IMG/VR virus record: IMGVR_UViG_3300025141_000334
Coordinates: 1-36,116 of that record
Length of the DNA: 36,116 bases
From: a virus
Strand: one strand, 5' to 3'
Numbering within the stretch: the stretch's first letter is position 1; each line of letters opens with the position of its first letter. A program made the translations under genes and the position numbers. Shown piece after piece: positions 142 through 27,524 of this stretch. Under the pieces are notes generated by a model, which did not search any database, had not been told where the DNA came from, and saw nothing but the letters and a program-made list of their open reading frames with translations.

Positions 142-1113
142 ATGAAATTAATAGGTATTATAGGTAAACTTATATTAGAACGGGCTGAAGATGAAGAAGT
201 TGAGTTTGGAGACATTCCCATGGATGCAGAAGATAGACCAAGAGATGAAGATAGACCAAGAGATGAAGATAGACCAAGAGATGAAGATAGACCAAGAGAT
301 GAGGAAAGACCACGTGAAGATAGGGAAGCCCCTAGGATAGGAAATTGGGTGTGTCTAGACCCAGTACGGCATCCAGGATGTAAAAAAGTTGAAGGTGAGG
401 AAGATATCGACTTCATTACTACTTATGGTTTTCCATTCTATCGTTCACAAGATGAGTGTGTAGAGTCTTCAGCATGCAGGGGGGAAAGAAGACCAACCAC
501 ACCAACAAAACCAACCACACCAACAAAACCCACCAAACCAGTAATACTTACCAAACCAAAAGCAAAACCTGAACAATCAACAGCTGTACAGACAGGAGAT
601 AAAAAACCAACTCCAACAACAGACACTGTAGATGTACCTGATATTAATATGACTACAAAGTATGATAGTGATGGTAATCTGAGTATAGAAAAAATACAAT
701 CAAAGAAATTTATACAAGTAGTTGAAGACAAACTAACCAAACAATTAGAGTTACAACCCCTACACATAAAACAAAAACTAAAACAATTTAATATAGAACC
801 CAAAAATATGTCTTTTCTGGTACCCCTATCTATTGAAACCGGAACCCTAATGTATAAAATGGAGCTAGACGGTTTAAATTTACCTTTGATGATGCTACTA
901 TATAAGAATACAGAAAGTTTATATAAATCTATGGTAGAAAATAAGCCATTTAAAGAATCACAAGCAAAACCAGTAACGGGAACTATCGGATATAAGAATT
1001 TTTGGAAATGGAATGAAGAGGTTTATAGTGGTTGGGGGACTTGGTTAAAAAATAATGTGGTAGAGAATTTTCCAGAAATAGCAAAAAATTCATTCCCTTC
1101 TTTATCTTTTTGA
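142..1113 (+). CDS. unidentified repeat-containing phage protein
   Basis: 323 aa; I do not recognise the family. Residues about 31-60 are four near-identical DRPRDE units encoded by an 18-bp tandem DNA repeat (from 232), with a degenerate fifth. Residues about 70-110 hold four cysteines (C71, C79 and the pair near C105/C110), with an aromatic stretch YGFPFYRS before the last two. This resembles a small disulfide or metal-bound fold. Next comes a Thr/Pro/Lys linker containing a second 18-bp repeat (493-528, PTTPTK twice), then about 150 residues that look globular. The start has no Shine-Dalgarno but follows a TATTTAT motif by 5 nt. The 3' end overlaps the convergent gene by 12 bp with no terminator between them. 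A virion or cell-surface-binding role is possible but unproven. Confidence 0.75.
   Translation: MKLIGIIGKLILERAEDEEVEFGDIPMDAEDRPRDEDRPRDEDRPRDEDRPRDEERPREDREAPRIGNWVCLDPVRHPGCKKVEGEEDIDFITTYGFPFYRSQDECVESSACRGERRPTTPTKPTTPTKPTKPVILTKPKAKPEQSTAVQTGDKKPTPTTDTVDVPDINMTTKYDSDGNLSIEKIQSKKFIQVVEDKLTKQLELQPLHIKQKLKQFNIEPKNMSFLVPLSIETGTLMYKMELDGLNLPLMMLLYKNTESLYKSMVENKPFKESQAKPVTGTIGYKNFWKWNEEVYSGWGTWLKNNVVENFPEIAKNSFPSLSF
232..321 (+). repeat. 18-bp tandem repeat inside the 142-1113 gene
   Basis: Unit GATAGACCAAGAGATGAA begins at 232, 250, 268 and 286, with one change in the last copy. A diverged fifth unit covers 304-321. Being a multiple of three, it keeps the reading frame and encodes DRPRDE. 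Copy number could vary by slippage. Confidence 0.95.
493..528 (+). repeat. second 18-bp tandem repeat, PTTPTK linker
   Basis: Two perfect copies of CCAACCACACCAACAAAA (493-510 and 511-528), encoding PTTPTK twice. The sequence is unrelated to the first repeat in the same gene, but the unit length is the same. Confidence 0.9.
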
Positions 1114-1572
1114 TTGGATTCTAGTTAAATAGGGACCTGTTAAAATACTTCTATAAATTTTTTGAGCTAATATTTTAAAAGCATCATTAATAGTTTTATC
1201 ATCCAGAGATAAATTTTGAGTCTCTACAAACCTTAAAGTAGCTCGAGTCATTAAATCTCTTATTTTTTGAGAGTTTTCCCAGATATATCGTAATGGTTCT
1301 AGTTGGTTTTCCATAAATTCTGACATATTAACAGGAAATTCTCCAGTTTCTTTAGCGTAAAGTAGTATTTCGTGAGATAGTTCTCCTTCTATAACAGACT
1401 TAGCGTCAGTTAAAAATGGACTTAAATCTGTAGTTATCATATTATATTTACCCCACAACCTAAGTTGTTCTATAAAGCGTGCCACGTCGTGTCTCTCTGG
1501 ACTAGTCAAAGTTAGTAGAGGTCCACCCTGCGTAGGGTCTAAATCGTCTATAAGTCTCTCAAAATCACTCAT
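1102..1572 (-). CDS. hypothetical phage protein
   Basis: 156 aa, beginning MSDFERLIDDLDP. A GTG at 1581 lies in frame, but it sits inside the end of the preceding gene. The ATG at 1572, 2 nt past that gene's TAA, is the better start. No family recognised. The sequence looks all-alpha, with amphipathic stretches and no cysteines, membrane segment or signal peptide. It follows the lysozyme-phosphatase gene so closely that the two are probably cotranscribed and translationally coupled, so a role with that enzyme (folding, inhibition or virion assembly) is possible. Its stop overlaps the convergent gene at 1102-1113. Confidence 0.7.
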   Translation of the reverse strand: MSDFERLIDDLDPTQGGPLLTLTSPERHDVARFIEQLRLWGKYNMITTDLSPFLTDAKSVIEGELSHEILLYAKETGEFPVNMSEFMENQLEPLRYIWENSQKIRDLMTRATLRFVETQNLSLDDKTINDAFKILAQKIYRSILTGPYLTRIQSKR

Positions 1573-1574
1573 AA

Positions 1575-3302
1575 TTACCACGAATTTTCATAGTTTTCTA
1601 TATAATCAGGGTCACAAGAAGGGCAATTCTTTCTCCATTCATCACCACCTTCACACCAATCTCTTAATGGAAGAAAGGCCTCCATATATTTGATATACCC
1701 CCAGTTACCTCCAGGCTTACAAACACTTCCTCCTTCACCACCCCAATGATTAAAGCCTGTCGCATAATCCCATATCTCTTCCGGTGTTCCCCACCCATTA
1801 TCAGATAGAAAAGCACCAACCATTTGTCCTGTTCTATCAGCACCATTTCTACAATGTACTAAAACATTACCTTGTGCTATAAGTTCTACAACTTTCGGAA
1901 CACTTCCTCCTGGAATATTCCTACCTTTTCCTGGTTTCCCTTTTCCATGTGAACTATAAAAACTACCACCAGAAAGGTGTTCGGTATCACCATACCACTC
2001 AACATCAAAATATTCCGCTATTTCTTCTTCATTTTTTGTTGTAAGACAACCACCACATCTTGCCGACTTATCATTGGGCTTATCACCATTCATTCTAACA
2101 ATATGTTTTATACCATAAGTTTCAATAATCCAAACTAATTCCTCAGCTGTAGGTTGCCCACTTCTCCAAGCATTACTACTATTAGGGATTTGTTCTAGTT
2201 GTAACTCAGGACATGGGGCTTTTGGTGTAATTTCCGAAACATCTCCTATATCATATTTTACATTACATTTATCAATCCCCTCCTCTTCATCAGTCTTATC
2301 AGTCTTATCTGTTTTTACTATGTTTTCTTTTGTTTTTCTTTGCCATTTACACCAGTTAGAATCTTTACAATATTCTTTTTTACATCCACCACTCTTACAA
2401 CAATACCCTACTTTACCTTCTTCTAGAGCGTAAAAAGTACACGGACCAATAATACCATCTGGTTTTAAACCAAACCTTCTTTGAAATTCTAAAACAGCAT
2501 CCTGAGTATCTTGTTGGAACACACCATCAATACCACCTTCACCCAAATCTATTTCATAATCGTAAAGTAACAAGGTTTGTATAATAGTAACTAACACACC
2601 CTTGTCTCCTTTTTCCATAACATCTATAGATTGTAATATATCCTCAGGATTGGTTGGGCCGTACGTATCTTTTGTAACTATAACTTCCACATCTTCTACA
2701 TCTTCAGGCTCAACACCTAAAGCTTTGGTATACCACCCATTAATCTTTTTAAAACAATGAGCTTTATCAATGTTATTAGCTCCAAATTTACTATTACAAT
2801 CACCAAAATGAAGAATATATGGAAGTGAAGCCCAAAGGTTAGCTAATTGGTCTACAATTTCATGAGTTAATTGGTCCGGTAAGTTATCCCAATCACCAGG
2901 AAGTCTTTTAACTAGCCCCCACCCAAGCTCATCTTGTTTTTCTTTAGTCATTATATCGTCTTCATCAGCTAAATCAAATTTATATATAATATCATGCAGA
3001 GTATCTTTTATAATTTGATAAGCCCCAGTAGCTGCAGTTTTAAATGAATAATCTACCTCACCACCACCAAATCGCTCAGGTAGTCTTTGAGTGTCTTGAG
3101 TATTCCACCATTCCTTTGCGGTCATTTGAGTTAGTTCTGGGTATTTAGCTCGACCTACAACTACAATATATGGATTATCCCAATCAGTATAATGATGTTC
3201 AGCTTGTCTAAGTACTTGTAATAAGGCAGCCTTTTTTGCTGACTGCGAAATTACTTCAGTTAATAAAGGTAATAAACTTATAGGTTTTTTAATAATACTC
3301 AT
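1575..3302 (-). CDS. lysozyme (lambda R/GH104-like), PG-binding and tyrosine-phosphatase-like fusion
   Basis: 575 aa, three modules in order. Residues about 20-200 resemble the lambda endolysin R: a catalytic Glu (E35 in RQAEHHY), IVVVG, TAATGAYQI (residues 89-97, matching the family's GAGRYQ) and LANLWASLP (family IWASLP). This fold cleaves the glycan strand of peptidoglycan. Residues about 233-293 are a PG_binding_1 domain (GVFQQDTQDAVLEFQRRFGL, DGIIGP). A Cys-rich linker (C301, C302, C307, C312, C318) and a Lys/Asp/Thr linker follow. Residues about 375-560 are a cysteine-phosphatase domain with the signature HC(X5)R at H483-C484-R490 (HCRNGADRTG). I cannot place the general-acid Asp. There is no signal peptide, so it is either a virion-borne enzyme or an endolysin needing a holin; no holin is visible. 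The lysozyme and phosphatase calls are strong; the purpose of the fusion is unknown. Confidence 0.85.
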   Translation of the reverse strand: MSIIKKPISLLPLLTEVISQSAKKAALLQVLRQAEHHYTDWDNPYIVVVGRAKYPELTQMTAKEWWNTQDTQRLPERFGGGEVDYSFKTAATGAYQIIKDTLHDIIYKFDLADEDDIMTKEKQDELGWGLVKRLPGDWDNLPDQLTHEIVDQLANLWASLPYILHFGDCNSKFGANNIDKAHCFKKINGWYTKALGVEPEDVEDVEVIVTKDTYGPTNPEDILQSIDVMEKGDKGVLVTIIQTLLLYDYEIDLGEGGIDGVFQQDTQDAVLEFQRRFGLKPDGIIGPCTFYALEEGKVGYCCKSGGCKKEYCKDSNWCKWQRKTKENIVKTDKTDKTDEEEGIDKCNVKYDIGDVSEITPKAPCPELQLEQIPNSSNAWRSGQPTAEELVWIIETYGIKHIVRMNGDKPNDKSARCGGCLTTKNEEEIAEYFDVEWYGDTEHLSGGSFYSSHGKGKPGKGRNIPGGSVPKVVELIAQGNVLVHCRNGADRTGQMVGAFLSDNGWGTPEEIWDYATGFNHWGGEGGSVCKPGGNWGYIKYMEAFLPLRDWCEGGDEWRKNCPSCDPDYIENYENSW

Positions 3303-3327: not shown

Positions 3328-5067
3328 CTAGAGTGATTGCATTTCCTCCAGAAGACTTAACATCAAATCCTCATCTTCAATATGGTCACCCAGTACAGTA
3401 TCTATTACTCTTTTTTTCCTTTGCACCATATTATAGATGATTTTTTCTATAGTATTATCGAATATTGGATATAGACAAGATACATTTTTCTTTTGGCCAA
3501 TTCTAAAAGCTCTATCTTCTGCTTGTGACATATCAGAAGGAACAAAAGATAAATCATTAAAAATTACAACTTCACCAGCAGTTAATGTGATACCAACACC
3601 ACCAGCTTTTATATTGGAAACAAATATTTTTGTTTTTGGGTCATTTTGAAATGAGTCTACACTCTCCTGCCTTTGTTCTTGATTCATTTTCCCATATAAA
3701 GGAACAGCCATTTTCTTATACTTAGACCAAATTTCCATTAAAGGTTCCGTAAAATTGGTAAAGACTATCACCTTTTTATCTTGTTCCAAACATTGGTCTA
3801 TTAGTTCAAAAGTGTTTTTTAATTTTTCATTTGCTATAATTTGTCTAACACTCATTAGTTTATTTAATTGTATAGTTAAACTTTGATTTTGATTTTCATT
3901 TGCCCAATCTAGGTACTCACCAACTTCTTTTTTATACTCAACCGAATCAATTTCTAAAAATATAGGAGTTATAATCTTGTCTGGCAAATCTAATATTTCT
4001 TCTTTTAATCTACGTAATACTTTTTGTTTGGTCCTATCCCTTAACTCATCAAGATTAGAAGCACCATGAGTTAACCATATTTTTCTACCACCTTTTGTTA
4101 TTTGATACCCTTCACAATATCTTATAACATAACTCACCCAGTTTCTAGCGACCCTAGATTCTACCACCTTTAAAAGATTATAATAATTCATAGGTCTTGA
4201 GGTCATTGGGGTCCCAGTTAGTAACCATACTTTTCCTACTTTATTTGTAATATTATTAATAAGTTTGGTTCTTTGGGCTTTTGTATTAGAAATATAATGA
4301 GCTTCATCTATAATTATTAAATCAAAATTCTCATCCAAAAGAGTAGTAATGCCTTCTTTTTTATCTAAACTATGAAAGTTTTTAAGGATATCATAATTTA
4401 TAATTACAAATTTAGCAGATAACCATTCCTTACCACGTATAATAGAAACGTCATCATCACTATAATTTTCAATTTCCCTTTTCCAATTTAATTTAAGAGT
4501 AGCGGGACATACGATTAAAACTTTTTTTGATTTACTTTCTATAGCAGCAATAATTGCACTAGTAGTTTTACCAACACCCATATCATCAGCTAGAATATAT
4601 TTATCGTTTCCTAATAATTTTTCTATAGCAATTTTTTGATGTTCATATGGTGGCCTATGTGAATAAGTAGAATAATCTACCACTACTTCTCTTTCAGTAT
4701 TTGGTACTATTTGGTTTTTAGGTACCCAGAAATCGTAAAATTTTTGAGAATCCAATACCTTACCCCAAATATGAAAAGCTTTAGGACGTTCAGCTAATAT
4801 CTTCTCTACCCAGATAGATTTAGGTTTTTCAGTTAAAAGACTATTAGTCATTAGACTTTCACTAAAATAATCATCTATCTCCACCCATTTTCTTGCAATC
4901 TTTGGTGATTTATCGTAATTATTAAGTACATAATCTGATTGAGACCTTGTTAAGGTTCTAGATTTATATATTTCATAGTAAGATTTTAGATTAAGAATAT
5001 AGTTATTGGCTCCAGAATAATCTGAAAGAATTTTTTTTGCTTCTATTTCCGGTAAAGTTAATTCCAT
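3328..5067 (-). CDS. SNF2-type superfamily 2 DNA helicase (UvsW-like role)
   Basis: 579 aa from the ATG at 5067 (MELTLPEI). An in-frame ATG at 5097 is rejected because a host-type promoter lies between the two. Visible motifs: Walker A DDMGVGKTT (K167), DEAH (D254-H257), LLTGTPM after it, and motif VI QAEDRAFRIGQ (515-525), the SNF2 family hallmark. The enzyme is an ATP-driven duplex DNA translocase. In T4 the comparable job is done by UvsW, which reverses forks and R-loops and helps switch replication from origin to recombination mode; this protein is closer in sequence to SNF2/HARP-like helicases. It is transcribed away from the structural genes under its own promoter, consistent with earlier expression. 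The helicase call is firm; the exact pathway is inferred. Confidence 0.92.
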   Translation of the reverse strand: MELTLPEIEAKKILSDYSGANNYILNLKSYYEIYKSRTLTRSQSDYVLNNYDKSPKIARKWVEIDDYFSESLMTNSLLTEKPKSIWVEKILAERPKAFHIWGKVLDSQKFYDFWVPKNQIVPNTEREVVVDYSTYSHRPPYEHQKIAIEKLLGNDKYILADDMGVGKTTSAIIAAIESKSKKVLIVCPATLKLNWKREIENYSDDDVSIIRGKEWLSAKFVIINYDILKNFHSLDKKEGITTLLDENFDLIIIDEAHYISNTKAQRTKLINNITNKVGKVWLLTGTPMTSRPMNYYNLLKVVESRVARNWVSYVIRYCEGYQITKGGRKIWLTHGASNLDELRDRTKQKVLRRLKEEILDLPDKIITPIFLEIDSVEYKKEVGEYLDWANENQNQSLTIQLNKLMSVRQIIANEKLKNTFELIDQCLEQDKKVIVFTNFTEPLMEIWSKYKKMAVPLYGKMNQEQRQESVDSFQNDPKTKIFVSNIKAGGVGITLTAGEVVIFNDLSFVPSDMSQAEDRAFRIGQKKNVSCLYPIFDNTIEKIIYNMVQRKKRVIDTVLGDHIEDEDLMLSLLEEMQSL

Positions 5068-5078
5068 ATATATTATTA

Positions 5079-5112
5079 CAAATATAATAAAATCCATAAC
5101 ATAGACAACAAA
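5079..5112 (-). promoter_or_regulatory. Bacteroidota-type promoter for the helicase
   Basis: On the minus strand TTTG (5112-5109), a 22-nt spacer and TATATTTG (5086-5079) match the Bacteroidota primary sigma consensus TTTG-N17-23-TAnnTTTG exactly. The expected transcript start is near 5074, about 7 nt before the ATG at 5067. It overlaps head-to-head with the TATTTAT box of the divergent gene (5114-5120), so the two are regulated from one 59-bp spacer. Confidence 0.6.
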
Positions 5113-20935: not shown

Positions 20936-21253
20936 ATGTCATATTATAATAGATATAAAGATTTTGAAGTTAATGGGGTGACTAAGACAGTTCCTCAGAT
21001 AGACATACCTAAGAAAACTTCAGATAGATATTTGGTATATAAGGTTGGACGTAGTAGGCTAGATAAAATATCACAACAAATATATAATACACCATATTTT
21101 GGGTGGTTAATTTTACAAGCAAATCCAGAATATGGTGGACAAGAATGGAACATTAAAGACGGTAGAATAATTAGAGTACCGTTTCCACTAACAGTTAGCT
21201 TACAAGATTACAAAAGTGAATTAGATAAACATTTTTTATATTATGGCAGATGA
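20936..21253 (+). CDS. baseplate wedge protein gp53-like (LysM-like fold)
   Basis: 105 aa. It matches the gp53 core: YLVYKVGRSRLDKISQQIY, then YFGWLILQANP, GRIIRVPFPL. This is a LysM-like pattern used in baseplates to bind neighbouring wedge subunits. T4 gp53 is longer (196 aa), so this is a minimal version. It overlaps the next gene by 11 bp, giving close coupling with the large hub protein. Confidence 0.85.
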   Translation: MSYYNRYKDFEVNGVTKTVPQIDIPKKTSDRYLVYKVGRSRLDKISQQIYNTPYFGWLILQANPEYGGQEWNIKDGRIIRVPFPLTVSLQDYKSELDKHFLYYGR

Positions 21254-24200
21254 TATTCTTAACGCGGGTGAAAGTGTGTATGTCCAACAAGTTTGTGATA
21301 ATTTAGTTTTAATAGACCCTAATAAAATAACAAGTCCTGACGGTAAAACTATAGAAGACAGACTAGTTAGACATGAAGATTTAGTAATTTATATAAATTT
21401 AGTTGCTACAGTAATACCTCGTTCTAAAATAATAGTTGATAAGGCGTCTTCAGATAATACTGGTGTAAAAGTTGATTTATTTAATGGAGAAATAAATTTT
21501 TTAAAACCTGTAGGTAAAAAATCTTTAGATAGTGATTGGACAGAAGCGTTTGGCCCATCTGTAAATAAAATAAGAAGACAAGAAGATGTAACTGAAAAGG
21601 GAGAAACTTTTATTACTAAGACAATAGATAATAAAAATGACTTTCAGGGGTTTGGTATAAAAAATATAGATATAAAAATAAGTTCTTCTTTTGTGCCACA
21701 AGTTACTATAAATTTTGTAGATGTAAGGGGGAAAACTCTTTTTGAACAAGCAGAAACAAATACACCATATACAGCTTTTTTTCATTTACCATATCCACAA
21801 TTTGATTTAACAGTTAAAGGGTATTACGGACAGGCGGTAAAATACCAACTAGCCTTAACTAATTTTCAGGCTAGTTTTGACAGTGGTTCAGGTGATTATA
21901 ATATCTCAGCTACTTTTATAGGTAACCATATTGCTTTATTAAACGATATTAATCTACAACAAGCAATGTTAGCTCCTTATATGTACCCGTCTACCAGACT
22001 AATATCTACAAATGTAGAAGAACAATCAAAAGGTTTAGGTAGAAAGATTATGGATGATGTTTATAACATATATAAAAAATTAGGATATCTAGCCCCAAAT
22101 TTCCCCCACCTAACAATTTATGAATTAATTGGTAAAGTAGAAACTTTTACTGATAACCTAAAGAAAAATTTTACAAAAGTTGACCTACAATTTACTAATG
22201 ACCAAAAAACATATGAGTTAAAACTTAAAAATTTTTATGAAGCTATTTTTGGAACTAATGGATGGAAGACAACTTATCTTCTCCCAGAAGACTCAAAAGA
22301 AAATGTACCTTTAGATATGGATATAGGTTCAGCTACCGATAACGGTGGGAAAAAAATAAAAGCTTTAGCTTATAGACTTATAGACAACACCAACGAAGGG
22401 ATAGAAAAGGCAGAGAGTAAATTGAGATACATAATAGACGGTTATAAAAGTATTTTAAAAGACAACCCTACTTTTGGTGTCGATAAAGGTGAAGGTTCAG
22501 TTAATTTAATAAGAGATTTTTTCACAGAACATCAAAGAGCAAGAAGTAATAATGCCCATAATATAAATGAGGTACCAGAAAAAGGTTACTATGTTTTAGA
22601 TAAGACCCCTAAAAGTTTTGGTGGTGTGTTTACCAGAGTTATGGCAGAATTTGAAAAAAATTATAATAGGATACAAAGCGAAGTAACCCAAAAACTAAAT
22701 AAAATATTTAAAGAAAGTTTAACAATCGAACCAACTATTAGAAATTTAGTAGCGGTAGTTATAGCGGGGGTTGACACTTATTTAAGATTAATGGATAAAG
22801 TTCATACTGATGCTTTTAACCAAAAAGATGCGGAAGATAGAATAAAAGTAATAATTACAGACAAAAAAGCCTATGCGGATACCGTAAAAGGTGAACACAC
22901 CGTTTTCCCATGGCCTCAATACTATGAATTTGATGACCAAGAAAATAAACTTGTATTAAAATATCCTGGAGCGGCAGGAAGTTTATCAATGACTAAAGCT
23001 TATGATAGGGCGTTATGGCCAGAGGTAGAATTTATAGAAGAATATACAAAAACTGTAGCTTTTAGGAGAAATGAAATAGTTGCACCAATATCGAATGATG
23101 CTAAATTTATAGAAGTAATCCCAATATCAGTAAGAGAATTTCCTTTTACGGGCATTGAGGCATATCAAATAAATAGTAATGACGGTTTAGGAACAATAGG
23201 CTCTATATTATGGGAAATATTAGATAGGGCAGATGATTTTACTAATTATGTTGGTGTTGTTGGGTATGAACTAATGAAACAACAAAAACTTGCTGATGTA
23301 ATATTTCAGGCAGCGGAGAACGACAGTAAAAATCTAGAAAATTCCATTAAGGAAAATTTACCTTTACTGGAGTTCTTTAAAGATAACAATTTTAACCGCC
23401 TAACCTTATCATCTTATTTTAAAAGTAATACACCCGATAAAGAGATATTATATCAAAATGCTTATATTAATACACCATATATAAATGATAGAGTAAATAA
23501 ACAAAGTGTACCATTAAAAGGAACCAATTTTGGACTATACCCCCAATCGGTTACAAAAGAAAGTTATACCAATAACGGGGAATTCTTAAAATATAAGGAC
23601 CTTTACTCGACTAGTAAAAAAGCATCAGACGGACTTTTTGATTGTTACCCATTTATTTTTTCTAATGTAAGTGGTTTAGGTGCTAGGTTAGCTGATGGTA
23701 TTCCCGCTCCTATAGGAACAGACTTTTTTGATATAAATGAATTAACTATCCCACCACAAACAAATGTTTACGCAACAGAAAATCATAAGTTATTTTTTAG
23801 TAATTTAAATTGGGATAGTGAGAAGTATGGAAATAGTAAAACTTTACCCACATTATCCTCATATACATTAGAACACCAGTGGGTAGAACATTATGAGACC
23901 ATAGAAAAAGATATATTGTTACAACCATTAACAGAAGGTATAAATAATACTGGCCAATTCGAAAACCAATGTGTTTCAATGTTAAACACACCGTGGTTCG
24001 CAAATGCAATATATAAAGGTTTTACACAAGAAGGGGCGTTACAACCATTACCATACGCTGAAGCTGCTTATCTGTTTTTAAACTCATTACCATTAAGTAG
24101 TACATTAGAAAAAATAATTACAAGTTTCGATTCAAAAAACCAATATGGTGGTTATACAGCTCAAGTAATTAAACAATTAGCAAGTTATCATGATTTACCT

Positions 24201-27200
24201 TATGCTTTTATTTTAAAAATGGGTTCATTGTGGTGGAATTATAAGAATGCACCGACAAATAAAGCAGATGGTATATTTGGTGGACTAGGTGCTGGAGATG
24301 GTGGTACTATGGGTAATGATGGTGATATTAGATGTAATGAATGGTATGTAGACCCGGCTAACGCAAATGGTAATGGCTGGTATGACTATACTTATGATGG
24401 AAATATTTTACCTGGTTTAGACACCACTAAAATAACTCTAGGTTTTTGGCCACGCCTTATAGACGCTGTGCACAAAATTGTTACAGATAAAAATATATTA
24501 AACCCTGTAGGGAGTTGGACCCCAACGCCAGACGCACAATCAAATTTCTTAAACACATTCCAACTCCAAATGGAAAGGGAATCCCATTTAACTTTTGATA
24601 AGGATAGTATCTCTTATAATTTTTATACAACGTTTGCTGATTCTGCTTTTATAGGGGCGTCAGGGTTAGATAGTGTAGATGCAGCTACTGACCCGTATTA
24701 TATTTTATATCCTTCAGCTGGTGGATTAGTAAATACAGATTTAAGTTTTATGACTGATAATATAAATACAGCTGGTTTTGATGGTAGTGCAAGATTTTTA
24801 TGGGCAGGAGCAGGATATGGTGCTTTTGATGTAAAAGAACCTCAGGGACAAACTGGAGCTGGAGGTTACGGTGCTATATACGGTAGAGTTCCTAGAACTA
24901 GATATTTAAAAAGGATTAAAAATACAACACCAGAACAAGAAGCTTGGAATATAAATCTTACAGATTTAAATGACAATAATACAAAGTATGATGATTTTAC
25001 TGAGTTACTATCAGTATTCCCAACACAAGTCCTAGAGGGGTTTGAAAGAGAATTTTTAAATTTTTCAGAACCAGTTAACCCAGATGCTAGTATAGTTGAA
25101 GGGAAATATACAGAATTTAAGAAAATATTTACAGACCTAATGTTTGTTAAAAAATCAGAAGTCGAATCAGTTGGAGCATCACCTACTACGCAGGAATTAG
25201 GAACAGCACAATACACAAAGTTTTTAAATGTTTGTAGAATATTTTTAAACCAGTCTGTAATATATAAACATGGTTCTGTAAATGGTTTGGATATTGTAGT
25301 AAACCCCACAAATAGCCCTTCTACGGTTGATACAACAACAACAAAATCGTTAGTTTATTATCTAGTAGACACTGGTACTATTAGGGCGTCCTTACCCCTA
25401 CCTAAATTTGATAACTCAGTTACACTACCAACAGCATCGTTTTTATTGGATATTTCTCTTTGGGTAATTCCTAGAAAAGAAATAGGTAGTAATTCACAGT
25501 TTAATAGGATGGTTAATATATGTTTTGACTTCTTTAAAAATTATGATATTTCACACACATTGGTTTTACAATTTGCACCAATACTTAAACTGTATATGAC
25601 TTTCACTGAACAAGATTCTCCTGGTGGAAACGTGGGATTAGACGAAGCAACTTTTACAAAAAGATTAACTAGTATGTTAACCATGATGGACAATGCCTCT
25701 ACAGAGTATGTAGATAAATTATTGAAACTAATGGCTAAGGTAAACCCATTTAAATCACTTAACGAAGAAGATGGTGACGATAGTGATGATGAAAGACCTA
25801 AAATTGTGGCAGATAATTTAAAATTAGAACTATATCAGGTTTTTAAAACATTTAACGATAAATGGATATCAGGTACTAAAGTACAGGGAGAAGACACCCA
25901 AACAAACAGAACATCTAACACATCCATACCTTCATATAATACGGTGATGGAAAGATTTATGTTTTTAGATAGGGGTAATAGAGATATTGGTAGTAAGGCA
26001 ATGATTGATATATATACGTTTTTGGGGTTAGACACTCCATTTACTAAAGAACCTAGTACTTCTGTTAAACAAACGGTTGCTGGGTTTATAAGTCATATAT
26101 GTTCTATAAATCATTTTAATTTCATACCATTACCATCTTATGTTAATTTTTATAATATGCAGGGTAATAATACACAGGCACAAGGTGATACTATGTTTGG
26201 TACTTTTAAAGAAGTTGATACTACAAAATCATCCCCTAAATATCTATGTCAATATGTTGGGCCACCATCAACAAGTCTAGATATAAAAACTATGAATTAT
26301 GGATATAATAATGATTCTTTTGTTTTAAATAGAGTCAGCCCAAATCCACTATGTGGTCCTGTGCCTAACACTGAAGAAGAAAGACAATTAAGCAATAAGA
26401 TTATGGCTTTTGCTGTTGATTTTGGAATCCCAAATCAACAAGTATTTGAAAATTTATCTTTGGACCAGTCAGAATTCCCAAACACAAGTGAGTCTTTTAG
26501 AATTTTGGAAGACTTAGGTAAAATGGCTAGTGGGTCCAAAGTTTCAACTAACTCATTAAATTTATTTAATTTGTACAAATCTAGGTCCTATAAATGCCAA
26601 GTAACAGCGTTAGGAAACGCTCTAATTCAACCAACAACCTATTTTCAACTAAGGTATGTTCCTATGTTTAGTGGTCCCTATCTTATTACGGACGTTAGCC
26701 ACTCCATATCACCAAATGAAATGCAAACAACATTTTCAGGAGTAAGAGTTGGTATTACAAGTTTACCTAAAATAACAGATTTACTTAGTACTATACAAGA
26801 ACAATTAACTAAACACCTAGACCAACTAGACGACGTTGTAGAAACCAACCAGAAGGAGCTTAAACTGGATGTATTTGATTTTACGGAACAAGAACTTGAG
26901 AATGACATAATAGATAACGAGTCCGACATCCAGACACTAACATTCCCAATTGGAGACCCTGTAGATTTAACCAAAATTCAGGAACCAAGCCCAGGACAGA
27001 AATTCTGGGTTCTAAGAACAAATAAAACCACCAAAAAAACATATAACCATAGAGGAATAGACTATTCACCTAATACAAAATCCCAAGGAGAAGATATTGT
27101 AATTAAATCACCGGTTTCTGGTATTATCACCCACATTAAGACTGGTTGCTTCCCTCGTCTATCCGCTAATGATGACAGTATTACTGGAAATGCTTGTGGA

Positions 27201-27524
27201 GGTGGTTATGGTAATTCTATGTATATAGAGAAGAGATTAATTGGAATGACAGATATAAGTGCGTGGGTAGAAGGTGCAGTTTCTAGATATGAGTTTAGAG
27301 TAGCACATTTAAAAGAAAACACTATGACAACTTTTACAGTTGGTGAAGCTATAACTAAAGGCGCTCAAATAGGTCTTATGGGTACTACTGGAAATTCTGA
27401 CGGAGTTCACCTACACTATGAAATAAAAAAATATTTTATTAATAAAAACTTGAAAGAAGAAATGAAATATTTAAACCCAAATAACTTTAATACAGAATAT
27501 CTTAAGGAAGAAAAATCAGCATAA
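21243..27524 (+). CDS. giant baseplate hub-type protein with C-terminal M23 peptidase
   Basis: 2093 aa. The N-terminal 250 residues (VPQVTINFVDVRGKTLFE, HLPYPQFDLTVKGYYGQAV) look like a baseplate beta domain. A second conserved stretch near residues 1770-1850 (QPTTYFQLRYVPMFSGPYLI, TDVSHSISPNEMQTTFSGV) resembles hub or gp27-like domains. The last ~170 residues are a LytM/M23 zinc peptidase: HRGID (H1936, D1940), RVAHLK (H2022) and HLHYEI (H2056, H2058), with IGLMGTTGNSDGVHLH as the family signature. The peptidase would cut peptidoglycan cross-links during injection, the job done by gp5 lysozyme in T4. Much of the middle is unrecognised. Hub plus enzyme in one chain is unusual at this size. 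Confidence 0.85.
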   Translation: MADDILNAGESVYVQQVCDNLVLIDPNKITSPDGKTIEDRLVRHEDLVIYINLVATVIPRSKIIVDKASSDNTGVKVDLFNGEINFLKPVGKKSLDSDWTEAFGPSVNKIRRQEDVTEKGETFITKTIDNKNDFQGFGIKNIDIKISSSFVPQVTINFVDVRGKTLFEQAETNTPYTAFFHLPYPQFDLTVKGYYGQAVKYQLALTNFQASFDSGSGDYNISATFIGNHIALLNDINLQQAMLAPYMYPSTRLISTNVEEQSKGLGRKIMDDVYNIYKKLGYLAPNFPHLTIYELIGKVETFTDNLKKNFTKVDLQFTNDQKTYELKLKNFYEAIFGTNGWKTTYLLPEDSKENVPLDMDIGSATDNGGKKIKALAYRLIDNTNEGIEKAESKLRYIIDGYKSILKDNPTFGVDKGEGSVNLIRDFFTEHQRARSNNAHNINEVPEKGYYVLDKTPKSFGGVFTRVMAEFEKNYNRIQSEVTQKLNKIFKESLTIEPTIRNLVAVVIAGVDTYLRLMDKVHTDAFNQKDAEDRIKVIITDKKAYADTVKGEHTVFPWPQYYEFDDQENKLVLKYPGAAGSLSMTKAYDRALWPEVEFIEEYTKTVAFRRNEIVAPISNDAKFIEVIPISVREFPFTGIEAYQINSNDGLGTIGSILWEILDRADDFTNYVGVVGYELMKQQKLADVIFQAAENDSKNLENSIKENLPLLEFFKDNNFNRLTLSSYFKSNTPDKEILYQNAYINTPYINDRVNKQSVPLKGTNFGLYPQSVTKESYTNNGEFLKYKDLYSTSKKASDGLFDCYPFIFSNVSGLGARLADGIPAPIGTDFFDINELTIPPQTNVYATENHKLFFSNLNWDSEKYGNSKTLPTLSSYTLEHQWVEHYETIEKDILLQPLTEGINNTGQFENQCVSMLNTPWFANAIYKGFTQEGALQPLPYAEAAYLFLNSLPLSSTLEKIITSFDSKNQYGGYTAQVIKQLASYHDLPYAFILKMGSLWWNYKNAPTNKADGIFGGLGAGDGGTMGNDGDIRCNEWYVDPANANGNGWYDYTYDGNILPGLDTTKITLGFWPRLIDAVHKIVTDKNILNPVGSWTPTPDAQSNFLNTFQLQMERESHLTFDKDSISYNFYTTFADSAFIGASGLDSVDAATDPYYILYPSAGGLVNTDLSFMTDNINTAGFDGSARFLWAGAGYGAFDVKEPQGQTGAGGYGAIYGRVPRTRYLKRIKNTTPEQEAWNINLTDLNDNNTKYDDFTELLSVFPTQVLEGFEREFLNFSEPVNPDASIVEGKYTEFKKIFTDLMFVKKSEVESVGASPTTQELGTAQYTKFLNVCRIFLNQSVIYKHGSVNGLDIVVNPTNSPSTVDTTTTKSLVYYLVDTGTIRASLPLPKFDNSVTLPTASFLLDISLWVIPRKEIGSNSQFNRMVNICFDFFKNYDISHTLVLQFAPILKLYMTFTEQDSPGGNVGLDEATFTKRLTSMLTMMDNASTEYVDKLLKLMAKVNPFKSLNEEDGDDSDDERPKIVADNLKLELYQVFKTFNDKWISGTKVQGEDTQTNRTSNTSIPSYNTVMERFMFLDRGNRDIGSKAMIDIYTFLGLDTPFTKEPSTSVKQTVAGFISHICSINHFNFIPLPSYVNFYNMQGNNTQAQGDTMFGTFKEVDTTKSSPKYLCQYVGPPSTSLDIKTMNYGYNNDSFVLNRVSPNPLCGPVPNTEEERQLSNKIMAFAVDFGIPNQQVFENLSLDQSEFPNTSESFRILEDLGKMASGSKVSTNSLNLFNLYKSRSYKCQVTALGNALIQPTTYFQLRYVPMFSGPYLITDVSHSISPNEMQTTFSGVRVGITSLPKITDLLSTIQEQLTKHLDQLDDVVETNQKELKLDVFDFTEQELENDIIDNESDIQTLTFPIGDPVDLTKIQEPSPGQKFWVLRTNKTTKKTYNHRGIDYSPNTKSQGEDIVIKSPVSGIITHIKTGCFPRLSANDDSITGNACGGGYGNSMYIEKRLIGMTDISAWVEGAVSRYEFRVAHLKENTMTTFTVGEAITKGAQIGLMGTTGNSDGVHLHYEIKKYFINKNLKEEMKYLNPNNFNTEYLKEEKSA

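Follow-up and report, generated by a model that had tools for sequence, protein, structure and literature searches.

Here, we find that a single gene of a T4-like phage joins a wall-cutting lytic transglycosylase (LT) to a peptidoglycan-binding domain, a conserved cysteine motif and a cysteine phosphatase, and that related phages keep the phosphatase while exchanging the enzyme in front of it. The reading we favor, tentatively and at somewhat less than an even chance, is that the product is a virion-carried, ejected protein that helps the phage penetrate the envelope by cutting peptidoglycan and bringing a phosphatase there. In this analysis we computed the domain make-up, the LT exchange, the conservation of C484 and R490, the purifying selection on the phosphatase, the statistics of the N-terminal leaders and, for the phosphatase, its further occurrence in baseplate-type and apparent signal-peptide forms.

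A fusion gene in a marine-type T4-like phage

The window analyzed here is a whole 36-kb IMG/VR virus fragment (36,116 nucleotides), and the L-numbered loci and contigs cited below come from phages compared with it. Gene content of the window is T4-like, including a tail sheath-like protein, a tail tube, a hub and a UvsW-like helicase, and the tail tube is ~40% identical to those of Microcystis phage Mel-JY01, Flavobacterium phage immuto and Rhodothermus phage RM378. The source of the fusion gene is a marine-type T4-like phage. By eye, a flavobacterial-looking exported protein (MKKLILTSAIALSTLFASAQ) lies close to the fusion locus in L013, L030 and L032, which hints at a Bacteroidota host for these phages. 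The hub-like protein (positions 21243–27524, 2093 residues) has a C-terminus resembling an M23 peptidase, with weak matches to phage peptidases, and it could be a second wall enzyme in the virion. PADLOC returned no defense family.

The fusion open reading frame encodes 575 amino acids, from an ATG at 3302 to a stop at 1575–1577, and the plus strand across the same interval carries many stops. Its features and neighbors are collected in Table 1.

Table 1. Features of the fusion gene and its flanking genes in the window
Feature	Position	Strand	Basis or remark
Whole fusion gene	1575..3302	-	Putative leader, LT, peptidoglycan-binding domain, Cys motif, DSP-type phosphatase
Putative N-terminal leader, residues 1-16 (MSIIKKPISLLPLLTE)	3255..3302	-	By analogy with EEINR-type leaders
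Lambda-R-type (GH104-like) LT, residues 17-200	2703..3254	-	phrog_90; WASLP block and Glu aligned with lambda R; same type in L030
Candidate catalytic Glu35 of LT	3198-3200	-	MAFFT alignment to lambda Glu; pairwise support weak
PG_binding_1 domain, residues 227-296	2415..2624	-	Pfam PF01471, 1.2e-11
Cys motif CCx4Cx4Cx5C, residues 301-318	2349..2402	-	Conserved in relatives
Lys/Asp-rich spacer, variable, residues 320-345	2268..2345	-	Comparison with relatives
DSP-type cysteine phosphatase domain, residues 372-550	1653..2189	-	Pfam, PDB profile searches, alignment
His452	1947..1949	-	Conserved in 10/12, in the stretch where DSPs carry the general-acid loop
P-loop HCRNGADRTG, residues 483-492	1827..1856	-	C484 at 1851-1853, R490 at 1833-1835
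UvsW-like helicase, upstream neighbor, same direction	3328..5097	-	phrog_62, 9.6e-98
159-aa gene, downstream neighbor	1102..1581	-	Likely start ATG at 1572; 85% conserved in L001

Wall-cutting modules and a conserved cysteine motif

The original prediction read this chain as a lambda-R/GH104-like lysozyme followed by a peptidoglycan-binding domain, a Cys-rich part and a cysteine phosphatase, and profile searches confirmed that make-up. Residues 16–196 match the endolysin profile phrog_90 at 3.8e-13 to 2.6e-12, and lambda R matches the same region of that profile at 3.9e-62. Direct BLASTP of the LT against lambda R returned just a 15-residue match ending in WASLP, and a PDB search with the LT module gave no match. 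From these sequence comparisons we regard the module as homologous to lambda R, itself a single-domain lysis enzyme, and as carrying a putative catalytic Glu. The PF01471 match spans residues 246–293 and scores 45.1 bits against a cut-off of 23. No signal peptide was visible by eye in the sequence of the window fusion protein.

Between the wall-binding and phosphatase domains, the Cys- and Lys/Asp-rich stretch had been taken as a linker at which the parts might separate. Its five cysteines are conserved, so this segment is not merely flexible, and the Lys/Asp-rich stretch that follows them is the sole variable part. Given the conserved cysteines, we rejected a disordered linker that lets the parts come apart; separation at this point finds no support, and a cut, if there is one, is likelier at the N-terminal leader.

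The phosphatase domain is conserved and under purifying selection

PDB chains matched by phosphatase profiles built from 3 and 11 sequences belong nearly all to the PTP superfamily. Single-sequence Pfam scores of the window phosphatase fall just below the curated cut-offs (PTP-NADK 4.5e-6, 26.6 bits against a cut-off of 27; Y_phosphatase3 6.8e-4; DSPc 0.0012), and homologues in L034, L033, L026 and L030 pass the Y_phosphatase3 cut-off. By sequence, the domain belongs to the cysteine-based PTP/DSP phosphatase superfamily, with an HC(X5)R(S/T) P-loop, HCRNGADRT, set in a homologous domain. The intact HC(X5)R loop of the original prediction thus holds up at the level of superfamily, with C484 and R490 exactly where it had placed them.

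Relatives in which these two residues are not conserved had been named as evidence that would count against a phosphatase. Because 9 of the 12 phosphatases in our alignment were retrieved by a P-loop pattern, our evidence for P-loop conservation is confined to the comparison of the window with L001 and L011. These two were retrieved without the P-loop, at ~73% and 33% phosphatase identity to the window respectively, and both keep C484 and R490. Conservation outside the P-loop, and hence independent of retrieval, extends to R380, Q383, P384, N405, E425, G460, W511, Y513, N518, W520 and Y539. The phosphatase domain is under purifying selection (dN/dS ~0.14–0.32 in the pairs measured), and its identity among relatives exceeds that of the other modules.

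The usual PTP/DSP catalysis needs a general-acid Asp on a loop before the P-loop, which homology does not. Between E425 and C484 we found no Asp common to the 12 aligned sequences, and for this reason we claim homology and not tyrosine-phosphatase activity. The lack of a conserved Asp, with just His452 standing in that region, speaks for a phosphatase-like domain that is catalytically dead or non-protein in its specificity and binds a phosphorylated ligand, for instance a phospho-sugar, a lipid or a nucleic acid. Retention of the complete HC(X5)R loop in L001 and L011, together with the low dN/dS, argues against such a domain, and we consider it very unlikely.

Four C-terminal cysteines (528, 550, 560 and 563 in the window) are present in the fused forms and all missing from two stand-alone forms described below; they could form paired disulfides or bind a metal.

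The wall-cutting enzyme is exchanged while the phosphatase is constant

The original prediction proposed a search for the same architecture in other phages, and five further uncultured T4-like phages proved to carry it at the same locus. L001 was retrieved with the whole protein, L011 and a further phage, L013, through the neighboring 159-aa gene, and L026, L030 and L032 by a DNA pattern for the P-loop. The order helicase, fusion gene, 159-aa gene is common to six phages (the window, L001, L011, L026, L030 and L032), and all five relatives retain the peptidoglycan-binding domain, the Cys motif and the phosphatase. In L013, the seventh phage, nothing lies between helicase and 159-aa gene; the fusion locus is therefore accessory.

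The LT in front is of two types. The window and L030 carry the lambda-R type; L001, L011, L026 and L032 carry the SLT type (E-S/N...GLFQ). With two types of LT beside the same phosphatase, what changes between phages is the wall-cutter, and what stays is the phosphatase.

N-terminal leaders resemble capsid-targeting tags

The T4 prohead protease cleaves after L/I-X-E, the first 10 residues of T4 internal proteins target them to the head, and Alt and some of the internal proteins are ejected (PMC9026906). The window leader ends in L-T-E, fitting this [LI]xE motif, a single match (LLTE) that is weak when taken alone. The motif SLLPLL recurs in the leaders of the window and L011 despite the different enzymes that follow it; this SLLPLLTE-type leader, which is not of EEINR type, was found only in these two. 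IKE occurs in the leaders of all five relatives. L001, L026, L030 and L032 start REEINRV(R/N)EIMG...IKE whichever LT type follows, so that four of the six fusions carry an EEINRxxxIMG...[IL]xE leader.

A DNA pattern for EEINR[IV]xxIMG recovered 17 loci from IMG/VR, every one (17/17) at the N-terminus of an open reading frame, and the proteins bearing the leader are of about nine kinds that otherwise have no relation to one another. An [IL]xE lies within 10 amino acids of the leader motif in 11 of 12 distinct leaders, compared with a mean of 1.1 and a maximum of 5 in 2000 shuffles. Two leader-bearing contigs, G012 and G017, encode an S77 prohead protease and gp23, and by eye their gp23 proteins show LINE/S and LISE/T where T4-like maturation cleavage would fall (at the slash), before the mature-like part. 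We detected no S77, S78 (PF03420/PF04586) or gp23 on the fusion-bearing contigs, all of which are fragments without a detectable head module. Because the front ends of the relatives look like packaging tags, and the LT is exchanged while the phosphatase is kept, the fusion protein is probably carried in the virion.

Other leader-like N-termini, MKLxxIIxKVILE and LTESDLxxIVxxVIxEQ, close with [ILV]xE and stand repeatedly at the front of unrelated proteins (window 142–1113, 11142–11963 and 12047–12907; L042, L027, L030, L032, L057 and L058), a pattern that would suit the tagging of many head-packaged proteins. The first of the window proteins (142–1113) carries an RPRDED repeat after its leader-like N-terminus, and the number and sequence of the repeats vary among related phages. 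L042 has three genes of ~150 amino acids with the common leader VINLTESDLxxIVKxVIKEQ that differ afterwards.

The same phosphatase occurs in baseplate-type and putatively exported forms

In L029 and in L025, L028 and L031, which are organized like it, the phosphatase follows a ~170-residue domain common to tandem neighboring genes. The C-termini of these neighbors are hydrolase-like (phrog_27932 'baseplate hub subunit and tail lysozyme' 4.4e-5, Glucosaminidase 0.018, SLT 0.09), and the opposite flanking gene of L029 matches Phage_lysozyme2 at 0.085; of these matches phrog_27932 alone is convincing, and most are below curated cut-offs. A gp25 baseplate wedge gene (2.3e-15) lies near the phosphatase gene in L029. 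The tandem arrays, with a common N-terminal domain and differing C-terminal domains, one of them the phosphatase, occupy 2479–6648 of L028 and 8795–12901 of L029, both on the minus strand. A PDB search with the shared N-terminal domain gave no match, and so lent no support to our initial idea of a gp5-like OB fold. L033 (2210–2848, minus strand) and L034 (189–842, minus strand) encode stand-alone phosphatases behind N-termini that look, by eye, lipobox-like or signal-like; judging from these, they could be exported in infected cells.

These forms bear on two other readings. The fusion might be an endolysin with an extra domain, made late for lysis, its phosphatase acting earlier in the cytoplasm or serving as a binding module. 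Its best family matches are indeed endolysins, and the gene sits beside the UvsW-like helicase, with the tail genes of the window encoded on the other strand. However, the locus is accessory, the leaders of the relatives match an N-terminal tag otherwise found on unrelated proteins, and the phosphatase occurs without an LT in the baseplate-type and signal-peptide forms, so that we judge an endolysin unlikely.

Alternatively, the same virion-carried protein could release its phosphatase activity in the cytoplasm, like T4 Alt, on host proteins, nucleic-acid ends or signaling molecules, which we consider unlikely. The leader with its [LI]xE follows the same logic as T4 internal proteins that enter the cell, among the PDB chains nearest to the phosphatase profile are a baculovirus polynucleotide 5'-phosphatase and mRNA-capping triphosphatases with HCTHG P-loops, and plasmid-borne bacterial homologues are annotated as ordinary DSP-family proteins. 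Yet the window P-loop is HCRNG, not HCTHG, and the fusion to LT and peptidoglycan-binding domains, the baseplate-type forms and the signal-peptide forms all point to the envelope. Among cultured phages we found no relative of the phosphatase at E<0.1 except a weak match to an Acinetobacter phage 'Protein tyrosine/serine phosphatase' (0.01), and scans of GTDB genomes confirmed none.

A proposed model for envelope penetration

We infer packaging, leader cleavage, ejection, catalysis and substrate as follows for the favored virion-carried protein. The capsid-targeting-like leader would take the fusion protein into the prohead, where the phage protease would remove it after [LI]xE, and at infection the protein would leave the virion along with the DNA. 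Held by the peptidoglycan-binding domain, the LT would cut the wall locally, and the C-terminal cysteine phosphatase would act in the periplasm or envelope on a phosphorylated host component. We place it there because the envelope is the compartment common to all three architectures. The original prediction had raised a virion-borne protein that breaches the wall and delivers a phosphatase into the cell; virion carriage and delivery gain support from the leaders, by analogy with capsid-targeting sequences, and from the occurrence of this phosphatase next to baseplate genes in other phages, and we would move the site of action to the envelope.

By analogy, the most economical description is an ejected protein in the manner of T7 gp16, with a phosphatase added. 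T7 gp16 is an internal head protein ejected into the envelope with an N-terminal LT, and the proposed likeness is that an LT rides on an ejected protein of the virion; relatives of gp16 exchange their wall-hydrolase domain (PMC8954989), as members of the fusion family do. Unlike gp16, the fusion belongs to a myovirus-type phage and its C-terminal partner is a peptidoglycan-binding domain with a phosphatase instead of a channel-forming region; the proposed likeness is one of layout. With T4 Alt and the internal proteins IPI–III, which have capsid-targeting sequences, it shares a short N-terminal leader ending in [LI]xE, whereas the leader sequences differ, the cargo is a wall enzyme plus phosphatase, and packaging and cleavage are putative, read here from sequence.

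The periplasmic dual-specificity phosphatase TpbA of Pseudomonas aeruginosa provides a precedent for a DSP in that compartment (PMC4409338), and our phosphatase profile matches its DSP-type domain at 1.4e-3. TpbA differs in being a host enzyme with neither LT nor peptidoglycan-binding domain, in its general-acid Asp105 and in its P-loop, HCKHGNNR as opposed to HCRNGADR or HCTHGADR in the phage family. Phage-encoded PTPs as such are already known (PMC12038007). The open-access literature we searched yielded neither a fusion of a phage wall enzyme with a phosphatase nor a virion phosphatase like this one, an absence that is weak evidence.

The leader analysis offers a means of recognizing the head-packaged proteins of uncultured T4-like phages by sequence alone. 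More broadly, it is possible, if doubtful, that cysteine phosphatases of one family help phages of marine-type environments to penetrate the envelope, as a further tool alongside wall hydrolases and depolymerases, mounted on ejected head proteins, baseplate proteins and lipoproteins, with a phosphorylated envelope component as the target. If the favored reading is true, a phosphatase reaches the host envelope aboard the virion, which is an activity without description in the literature searched, and a phosphorylated envelope substrate important for infection should exist.
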